From assembly GCA_946480465.1 (NCBI GenBank), contig CAMLJY010000171.1, forward strand, positions 1-6,277: a stretch of DNA of 6,277 nucleotides, written 5' to 3'. The notes below the pieces were generated by a model. It saw nothing but the letters and a program-made list of their open reading frames with translations, did not search any database and was not told where the DNA came from. How positions within the stretch are numbered: the stretch's first letter is position 1; each line of letters opens with the position of its first letter. This document shows positions 1,811 through 4,754 of this stretch, piece by piece. The position numbers were made by a program, and so were the translations under genes. The stretch comes from an uncultured Burkholderiales bacterium (GTDB taxonomy: Bacteria; Pseudomonadota; Gammaproteobacteria; Burkholderiales; Burkholderiaceae).

Positions 1811-1856
1811 GTCTTCCTCTTTGAACTTGGTGGTTCTAGTAGAGGGCCGGCTGGCC

Positions 1857-1865
1857 TGTGGAGAA
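1857..1865 (-). promoter_or_regulatory. DnaA box, one mismatch
   Basis: TGTGGAGAA on the plus strand, that is TTCTCCACA on the minus strand, differs from TTATCCACA only at position 3. It lies about 47 bases upstream of the dnaN start and directly beside the AT-richer stretch at 1868-1896. It could serve origin unwinding or dnaN control. Confidence 0.55.
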
Positions 1866-1975
1866 CCGTATTTTCGCCTGCAATTTCAAGGATTTAGGGC
1901 GGCACGAACCCTGTGGGGCAGCAGGCCGGAAGCGGGCGGGCAAACCGACAACAAGTTCGGGCCGTTCACGCCGGC

Positions 1976-1984
1976 TGTGGATGA
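1976..1984 (-). promoter_or_regulatory. DnaA box, one mismatch
   Basis: TGTGGATGA on the plus strand (TCATCCACA on the minus strand) has one mismatch to the consensus. The identical 9-mer occurs again at 4424-4432 inside rnpA, which supports it as a real variant box of this chromosome. Confidence 0.6.
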
Positions 1985-1987
1985 CTG

Positions 1988-2022
1988 CAAGGTTGTTCGG
2001 AAAATGTCCACAGGGTTGTTCG
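1988..2022 (+). repeat. 12-base direct repeat pair, 23-base period
   Basis: CAAGGTTGTTCG (1988-1999) and CAGGGTTGTTCG (2011-2022) match at 11 of 12 positions. They are spaced 23 bases apart, close to two helical turns, with the DnaA-like 9-mer 2004-2012 between and partly overlapping them. The layout resembles short iterons flanking an initiator site; the binding protein, if any, is unknown. Confidence 0.5.
2004..2012 (+). promoter_or_regulatory. Weak DnaA-box-like site
   Basis: ATGTCCACA has two mismatches to TTATCCACA, at positions 1 and 3, with the conserved CCACA core intact. It is credible mainly because it lies 19 bases from the 1976-1984 box in opposite orientation, framed by direct repeats. 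Confidence 0.35.
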
Positions 2023-2027
2023 AAGGC

Positions 2028-2048
2028 AAAAAAGGCCCCTTGCGGGGC
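2028..2048 (-). terminator. Rho-independent terminator after dnaA
   Basis: Read on the minus strand, GCCCC (2044-2048) pairs with GGGGC (2035-2039) around a 4-nt loop, followed by one C and a run of six T (plus-strand A's at 2028-2033). It lies about 100 nt past the dnaA stop and upstream of dnaN. The stem is short but fully G-C, and the T-run is textbook. It would end much of the dnaA transcript before dnaN. Confidence 0.7.
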
Positions 2049-2149
2049 GCTGGTCGGATCGGTATCGGAGAGGTGCCGCTGGGCTCGGTGGCCCGCGGAC
2101 TGATGGTTTTGCGGGCCTTGCCCGCCGCGGAGCGGCCCAGGTCTGCGGG

Positions 2150-3622: not shown

Positions 3623-3631
3623 TGTGGACAA
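3623..3631 (-). promoter_or_regulatory. DnaA box abutting the dnaA start codon, one mismatch
   Basis: TGTGGACAA on the plus strand (TTGTCCACA on the minus strand) has one mismatch to the consensus and ends immediately before the dnaA ATG. It occupies the space between the Shine-Dalgarno-like AGAAG and the start codon. Bound DnaA would lie within the first transcribed bases of its own gene. The TTG of this box is the spurious in-frame alternative start. Confidence 0.55.
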
Positions 3632-3682: not shown

Positions 3683-3711
3683 GTTATCCACAGTTCCGAG
3701 ACGTCGGTCAA
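3683..3711 (-). promoter_or_regulatory. Candidate dnaA promoter (distal), overlapping a DnaA box
   Basis: On the minus strand TTGACC (3706-3711; 5 of 6 to TTGACA) is followed after 17 bases by GATAAC (3683-3688; 4 of 6). The -10 lies within the DnaA box 3684-3692, so DnaA binding would block this promoter. It is an alternative or an addition to the proximal candidate. Confidence 0.4.
3684..3692 (+). promoter_or_regulatory. Perfect DnaA box upstream of dnaA
   Basis: TTATCCACA matches the consensus at all nine positions and lies 61 bases upstream of the dnaA ATG, within or beside both candidate dnaA promoters. DnaA binding here would fit the autoregulation of dnaA known in other bacteria, and the site may also count toward the origin. 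Confidence 0.8.
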
Positions 3712-4241: not shown

Positions 4242-4754
4242 ATGGTCGGGCGCTTGCTGCGAACGGCCGATTTCGAGCGCGTGCTTTCCCAGCCGCCGTG
4301 CTCGCGAAGTGCTCACTTCGCGTTGCACCACGTGGCGGGTGAGCTCCTGCCCGCCGGCAAAGCAGGTTGCGCACCGGATTCCGACAAGTTATCCACAGGT
4401 GATGCACCTGGTTGCCCACCGCTTGTGGATGAGTGTTCCGGCGCAGCTGTCCCGGAGGCTGCGGAACTCGGCGCGTCAGCCGTTAGCGGCCGCTGGCTCG
4501 GCACCGTCGTGCCCAAGCGGCATGCCCGGCGTGCCGTTACCCGCAACCTGCTGAAGCGGCAGATGCGCGCGGCGGTTCAGGACGAGGCCGAACGCCTGCC
4601 CCCCGGCCTGTGGGTGGTGCGCCTGAAGGCGCCGTTCGACAAGCAGCAGTTTCCAAGCGCTGCGTCGGGGCCGCTGCGTGCACTCGCGCGCAGCGAACTG
4701 GCCGCCTTGTTCCAACGCGCGATCGCGCGTCCGCCGAAGGCCGACCCGCGATGA
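4242..4754 (+). CDS. rnpA: Ribonuclease P protein component, with an internal extra segment
   Basis: Protein cofactor of RNase P, which with the catalytic RNA (rnpB, not in this window) removes 5' leaders from pre-tRNAs. The N-terminus LLRTADFERVL.....SRSAHFALHH (5-30) and the RNR-type motif RRAVTRNLLKRQMR (96-109), with the preceding WLGTVVPKRHA, identify it, followed by LWVVRLKAPF. The length of 170 aa is well above the usual 115-130. The excess is a Pro/Ala/Gly-rich stretch, about residues 33-80, between what would be the first and second beta strands. Codons 50-52 (LST) and 62-63 (VD) of this stretch are spelled by DnaA-box DNA. The ATG at 4242 has only a poor, very close CAGG, so translation may depend on coupling to rpmH; the frame is open upstream and an alternative start cannot be excluded. 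The stop overlaps the yidD start (ATGA). Confidence 0.93.
   Translation: MVGRLLRTADFERVLSQPPCSRSAHFALHHVAGELLPAGKAGCAPDSDKLSTGDAPGCPPLVDECSGAAVPEAAELGASAVSGRWLGTVVPKRHARRAVTRNLLKRQMRAAVQDEAERLPPGLWVVRLKAPFDKQQFPSAASGPLRALARSELAALFQRAIARPPKADPR
4303..4322. repeat. Perfect 9-bp-arm palindrome inside rnpA
   Basis: CGCGAAGTG (4303-4311) and CACTTCGCG (4314-4322) are exact reverse complements with a 2-base centre. It lies in codons for SRSAHFA of RnpA, 66 bases before the perfect DnaA box at 4389. It could be a protein-binding dyad in DNA or a hairpin in the mRNA; the encoded segment is itself conserved in RnpA, so chance is possible. Confidence 0.6.
4389..4397 (+). promoter_or_regulatory. Perfect DnaA box inside the rnpA coding sequence
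   Basis: TTATCCACA matches the consensus at all nine positions and reads as codons 50-52 (L-S-T) of RnpA. TTA is a rare leucine codon in such a GC-rich genome, so its use here hints that the DNA sequence itself is selected. It faces a second box at 4424-4432. Confidence 0.75.
4424..4432 (-). promoter_or_regulatory. Second DnaA box inside rnpA, inverted, one mismatch
   Basis: TGTGGATGA (TCATCCACA on the minus strand) has one mismatch to the consensus and is identical to the box at 1976-1984. It is inverted relative to the 4389 box, with 26 bases between them. That gap includes the dyad CAGGTG/CACCTG (4396-4410). Confidence 0.6.

Follow-up and report, generated by a model that had tools for sequence, protein, structure and literature searches.

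The window analysed here, a stretch of 6,277 nucleotides from an uncultured Burkholderiales bacterium, raises the question of why two DnaA boxes should face each other inside rnpA, a gene for an RNA-processing protein. Their letters could serve the protein, the mRNA or the DNA itself, and each of these possibilities is weighed below.

A pair of opposed DnaA boxes within rnpA

The rnpA coding sequence (4242..4754 on the + strand, 170 aa, with the ATG start as listed) lies between rpmH and yidD-yidC, all on the same strand. DnaA box 1, TTATCCACA (4389..4397, + strand), is read in frame as TTA-TCC-ACA and encodes Leu50-Ser51-Thr52, and DnaA box 2, TCATCCACA (4424..4432, - strand; TGTGGATGA on the + strand), extends from the third base of codon 61 through the codons of Val62 and Asp63 to the second base of codon 64. 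The places of the boxes, their opposed orientation and the gap of 26 bases between them (35 nt from start to start), all within rnpA, are as an earlier sequence-only reading of this DNA had described them. That reading also pointed to the TTA leucine codon under the perfect box, and across 62 related rnpA genes, in the rest of the sequence compared, TTA indeed makes up 1.2% of the leucine codons. Allowing one mismatch, TTATCCACA is matched six times in the window vs 0.19 matches expected, and none of 200 dinucleotide shuffles reaches six, so that the window holds a cluster of DnaA boxes above chance. Two of the six lie in the dnaN-dnaA intergenic region, one at the start of dnaA and one between dnaA and rpmH, and the other two are the rnpA pair. 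In an Rfam scan of the window, nothing reaches the gathering threshold.

Conservation of letters and spacing among relatives

To place the pair in an evolutionary setting, loci were taken from the best 80 DnaA matches to the window's DnaA; they are hence close kin, for which the counts of changes on the tree allow in part. A tblastn search located the rnpA gene in the window and in 77 of the loci, but not in L005, L070 and L075. On a quick DnaA tree with SH-aLRT support only, the pair is present on one side and absent on the other of a branch with support of 100. The side that carries it (the window and L001-L062 without L005; 62 genes) is called the pair clade here, and the other side (16 genes) the outgroup. 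Among these loci, the one nearest to the window is L009, Aquabacterium terrae (Sphaerotilaceae). Judging by record titles, the pair group (Sphaerotilaceae) includes Rubrivivax, Roseateles, Ideonella, Aquabacterium, Rhizobacter, Methylibium, Sphaerotilus, Caldimonas, Inhella and others, and the outgroup represents the Comamonadaceae side (Acidovorax, Comamonas, Delftia, Polaromonas and Diaphorobacter, among others).

Throughout the clade, box 1 reads TT[AG]TC[CA]ACA (62/62 genes) and the distance from its first base to the first base of TGTGGA is 35 nt (62/62). This spacing had been fixed beforehand in the first count of pairs, and a separate scan left it free. In the free scan, the 35-nt spacing was found in 20, 33 and 58 of the 62 clade genes at up to 1, 2 and 3 total mismatches, respectively, with runner-up spacings reaching 7/62, and the 16 outgroup rnpA genes yielded no pair at any spacing between 10 and 120 nt. 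In 44 of the 62 clade genes box 2 is TGTGGATGA, and in 32 neither box departs from TTATCCACA by more than one mismatch.

Box 1 takes four forms in the clade, namely TTGTCAACA (21 genes), TTATCCACA (18), TTATCAACA (12) and TTGTCCACA (11), and in 33/62 genes it has an A at position 6, off the E. coli DnaA-box consensus TT[A/T]TNCACA as given in PMC8682772. That only 18 genes carry the exact box and 21 carry TTGTCAACA would be in keeping with a site for a different DNA-binding protein with a consensus similar to that of DnaA boxes. We regard this as very unlikely: the site adjoins dnaA and other boxes, two deviant genes described below have boxes 3 bp apart, and weak partner boxes of E. coli at datA and nrdD, as listed in PMC11317965, also have A at position 6.

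There may also be weak box-like sites between the two boxes. When box matches on the + strand were averaged over the 62 sequences, offsets 11 and 23 ranked next after offset 0, with modest averages of 3.6 and 3.5 matches of 9 vs a mean of 2.0 (sd 0.7). At least 7 of 9 letters match at offset 23 in 13% of the sequences and at offset -21 in 15%. The best - strand offset after 35 is offset 1 (4.61), which overlaps box 1 itself and hence is no separate site. In the window, the putative weak sites are TGATGCACC (4400..4408, + strand, offset 11), which begins 2 bp past box 1, and TTGCCCACC (4412..4420, + strand, offset 23). According to the accessible text of PMC11317965, the boxes preferred by E. 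coli DnaA are separated by 2-3 bp and are often one strong and one weak; the 2-bp gap at offset 11 is of this kind. Extra box-like sites 21 nt before or 23 nt after box 1 were seen in the rnpA loop of L023, L036 and L008 and of L022, L031 and L032.

Selection on the DNA

The codons beneath the boxes were compared with other conserved codons of the same genes by counting third-base changes on the DnaA tree. The box 1 Thr and the box 2 Val (GTG in 62/62) have undergone none, vs 21 in another conserved Thr, 15 and 17 in two conserved Val, 20 in a Gly and 19 in an Ala. All other conserved columns with synonyms have 4-29 third-base changes (6 for the Asp of VD), and the sole other conserved column with none is a Trp, which has a single codon. 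Likewise, the Thr is ACA in 62/62 genes vs a background of 15%, and the base preceding GTG is T in 62/62 vs 13%. The Leu of box 1 is written only as TTA or TTG and the Ser only as TCC or TCA; on the tree, base 3 of box 1 has toggled between A and G at least 13 times and base 6 between A and C at least 8 times, and no other bases occur. Conservation of the pair across the clade with strong synonymous constraint at the box codons is what the sequence-only reading had proposed to look for. Since the Thr and Val codons are frozen while the surrounding loop varies in length, it is the DNA itself that appears to be selected.

Two explanations that do without a DNA site are bound up with these counts. 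The first is that RnpA function maintains an LST...VD motif, with the DNA following suit. In an alignment of 30 clade proteins, L, S, T and V are indeed among the 17 invariant columns, within the alignment's most variable part. However, the motif lies in a disordered loop that varies in length (6-35 aa separate the first strand from LST, and 4-24 aa separate VDx from the next strand), the 16 outgroup genes lack the pair that encodes it, and neither the unchanged ACA and GTG, for which synonyms are free, nor the fixed T before GTG is what a protein motif would ask for. We therefore consider a protein motif highly improbable. The second is an mRNA hairpin formed by the inverted boxes, with a stem of 9 bp that in the window includes one G-U. 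All nine pairs are possible in 28/62 clade genes, but in 33/62 an A-G clash stands at stem position 6, where the partner G is fixed in 62/62 genes with no compensatory change. This uncompensated mismatch contradicts a hairpin, a reading to which we give next to no credence.

Comparison of the 62 genes shows the key letters and the spacing to be held by selection on the DNA, beyond the needs of protein or RNA stem, and this selection very probably serves DnaA.

The RnpA protein and its loop

The product of the window's gene can be assigned to the RNase P proteins on the basis of its domain and fold. The Pfam Ribonuclease_P model scores 43.9 bits (cut-off 22.3), although the scores for NCBIfam PRK00038.1 and TIGR00188 fall below their cut-offs. 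Five structures match the AlphaFold2 model (mean pLDDT 83) in Foldseek at E <=0.001, all chains of B. subtilis and S. aureus RNase P proteins; one of them, 4jg4, we take to be the B. subtilis protein, and the other four are so titled. In the model, a strand at residues 26-31 is followed by residues 32-83 (4335..4490, + strand) without secondary structure and by a strand at 84-89. The pLDDT is about 46-56 across most of residues 32-83 and the flanking strands are confident; in relatives, the stretch varies in both length and sequence. The boxes (residues 50-64) are thus placed in an unstructured stretch between two strands, in agreement with what had been read from the sequence.

The earlier reading had gone further and regarded an RnpA insertion as the protein-level cost of accommodating the boxes. 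In the pair clade, the loop measures 31-61 aa (median 47; 57 of the 62 genes measured), and on the Comamonadaceae side it measures 23-47 aa (median 41; 16/16 genes), with no pair in any of these 16. Loops of similar length in relatives without boxes, which the earlier reading had itself named as a finding that would count against it, indicate that a long loop does not need them, and an insertion caused by the boxes is therefore rejected. The more general proposal, that DnaA-box DNA has been accommodated within a coding gene, is upheld by the clade-wide pair and the synonymous constraint. Order-wide, the loop between the two strands is short in many RnpA proteins, as judged by eye.

Occurrence in the family and the order

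Among 399 genomes of the family, the strict pair pattern was found in 136, and its reversed control in 0/399. The pattern occurs once per genome in 7/7 clade genomes and is absent from one outgroup genome; two genomes of the larger scan, G082 and G186, have a second place. Fifty pattern places were examined, 30 as given and 20 picked partly for looking odd: 42 lie in rnpA, 5 between hemE and priA, 1 in another intergenic region and 2 in other genes. With a profile built from 30 clade RnpA proteins, RnpA was detected in 192/200 family genomes, and the strict pair, with places compared by eye, lies in rnpA of 63 of the 70 family genomes in which RnpA scores at least 150 bits. G063 and G115 have a lower-scoring RnpA yet carry the strict pair in rnpA.

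Four of the seven exceptions keep the 35-nt spacing with a degenerate box (L212, L214, L215 and L216). In two more, the spacing differs and boxes lie at a distance of 12 nt (L209 at 32/44 and L217 at 41/53/65); the resulting 3-bp gap resembles the doublets that E. coli DnaA prefers (PMC11317965, accessible text). In the remaining one, L213, no pair was found within the thresholds used, and the same holds for the 14 lower-scoring rnpA genes examined (L218-L231). In an order-wide sample, G001 apart, the strict pair was found in 0/59 rnpA loci; the search spanned all 59 whole loci, with rnpA candidates in 49 of them and a match in 5 of the other 10, at least one of which (L185) is apparently spurious.

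Inverted DnaA-box pairs were also observed between hemE and priA, at 35 nt in L087, L111, L114, L115 and L116 and at 24 nt in L210 and L211; hemE and priA were identified by NCBIfam on L114 and by eye in the rest. The hemE-priA pair of G082 lies about 4.5 kb from atpC. Since a 35-nt pair recurs at this junction, the geometry as such is no proof of an origin part.

Relation to the origin of replication

Boxes in the clade, mapped with up to one mismatch, cluster in three places: dnaN-dnaA, dnaA-rpmH and rnpA. No box at this threshold was found in dnaN, in rpmH or up to 1.2 kb past rnpA, and dnaA itself holds 31 one-mismatch boxes in 63 loci. In the window, the box search places a perfect box in the dnaA-rpmH intergenic region (3684..3692, + strand), a one-mismatch box at the start of dnaA (3623..3631, - strand) and boxes at 1857 and 1976 (both - strand) in the dnaN-dnaA intergenic region (1811..2149), a candidate core origin of the clade.

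Within the window's dnaN-to-yid stretch, the helix is weakest in the dnaN-dnaA intergenic region, as in 37/59 clade loci; the weakest helix falls in rnpA in 1/59. The rnpA pair thus does not have boxes beside an easily unwound AT-rich stretch, as an oriC would, and given this single locus, rnpA is not the unwinding site and no oriC by itself. From this distribution, dnaN-dnaA may be where the clade has its core origin, and rnpA would be at most a satellite. In the outgroup, the weakest helix lies in dnaA-rpmH in 10/15 loci, and the core origin may therefore differ between the sister groups.

GC skew at four-fold sites did not locate the origin. In G082 (20 sampled stretches), the skew is negative at 600-780 kb, positive at 840-885 kb and then near zero or of either sign. 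In this genome rnpA lies at 900 kb and hemE-priA at 1,464 kb, so that the first sign change is 60-120 kb from rnpA, and the skew fluctuates thereafter. The same stretches have no lasting sign change at hemE-priA, which argues, as weak evidence, against hemE-priA as the true origin. Two genome papers on Burkholderiales, in their accessible parts, describe the exact origin of chromosome 1 as uncertain or locate the switch in skew about 90 kb away from dnaA (PMC4948915, PMC2864759).

Possible roles of the pair

On balance, we lean towards the rnpA pair being an origin-proximal DnaA-binding module, which would either belong to an extended oriC or control initiation from an adjoining site. Such a module would be written into the part of rnpA that encodes the disordered RnpA loop, and would consist of two facing boxes 35 nt apart, perhaps with the weak sites at offsets 11 and 23 between them. 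DnaA would bind both boxes, and the module, as a satellite of the origin, would serve to nucleate a DnaA complex, or to hold one, that assists initiation or sets its timing. The dnaA-rpmH box is about 0.7 kb away and the dnaN-dnaA boxes are at a distance of about 2.4-2.5 kb; this nearness, along with the concentration of boxes in three places, makes an origin-proximal satellite the most likely role. The cost to the gene would be small because the loop tolerates many residues. Bipartite origins occur in other bacteria. A bolder version, in which the origin of the whole family is split and a fixed DnaA assembly sub-site is dual-coded in the RNase P protein gene with the disordered loop as its landing strip, is conceivable and is offered tentatively.

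The position of the boxes within rnpA, a gene flanked on the same strand by rpmH and yidD-yidC, also invites the idea that DnaA acts there as a roadblock or operator, coupling rnpA-yidD-yidC expression to the DnaA-ATP level without bearing on initiation. DnaA roadblocks within transcribed regions have been described for E. coli (PMC11317965, accessible text), but a roadblock has no obvious need for a fixed 35-nt inverted geometry, and we judge this role unlikely.

Rather less probable still is a site for titration or nucleotide switching (datA-like or DARS-like), which would lower or restore active DnaA. Opposed boxes near dnaA, with the same spacing recurring at hemE-priA, would fit it. Like the rnpA pair, the DARS1 and DARS2 cores of E. 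coli have clustered DnaA boxes at fixed spacing with one in opposed orientation; however, they lie between genes, and the spacing measured in both is 0/14/26 (PMC5742627, in its accessible part, states that the two are equal). The rnpA module, inside a gene, reads 0/(12)/35 from box 2. It therefore lacks the defining arrangement of a DARS core, in which box I is opposed and the three boxes stand at 0/14/26, and a more DARS-like site is found elsewhere in genomes of the family, between the genes for a Do-family protease and lepA (L194 and L195, 0/15/26). Given the weakest helix in dnaN-dnaA and the lack of a DARS fit, we favour the order of origin-proximal DnaA module first, operon roadblock second, and titration or nucleotide switching third.

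DnaA sites inside genes are common to E. coli, where sites in yceQ and dnaN are listed, and to this clade; the E. coli double boxes are close and in the same direction, unlike the 35-nt inverted pair, and clade-wide codon freezing is not a subject of the accessible part of that work (PMC11317965). In Bdellovibrio, the accessible account of the origin likewise has DnaA boxes around dnaA in the same gene cluster, with 6/8 in the dnaA-dnaN intergenic region, whereas here a codon-frozen pair lies inside rnpA. The literature searched, mostly without subscription papers and in its accessible parts, describes no DnaA boxes inside rnpA and no such pair.

The pair is a clear example of DNA that is kept at nucleotide precision inside a gene for an RNA-processing protein, very probably to control replication, with the protein loop varying around the fixed DNA. 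The small loop could serve as a test bed, through synonymous recoding, for the function of a DnaA pair of fixed geometry, and the pair points to further DnaA sites in the Burkholderiales, an order in which the origin can be hard to place.

At the junction of the Do-family protease and lepA genes, an inverted group of boxes was seen in 9 of the 18 places examined (L194-L198, L200 and L204-L206), at 26 nt in six and 48 nt in three. The gene names were checked on L204 and otherwise assigned by eye, and the pattern search behind these sites matched 57/200 genomes vs 6/200 for its reversed control. The sites in L194 and L195, with spacing near that of the DARS core, are a candidate DARS of this family.
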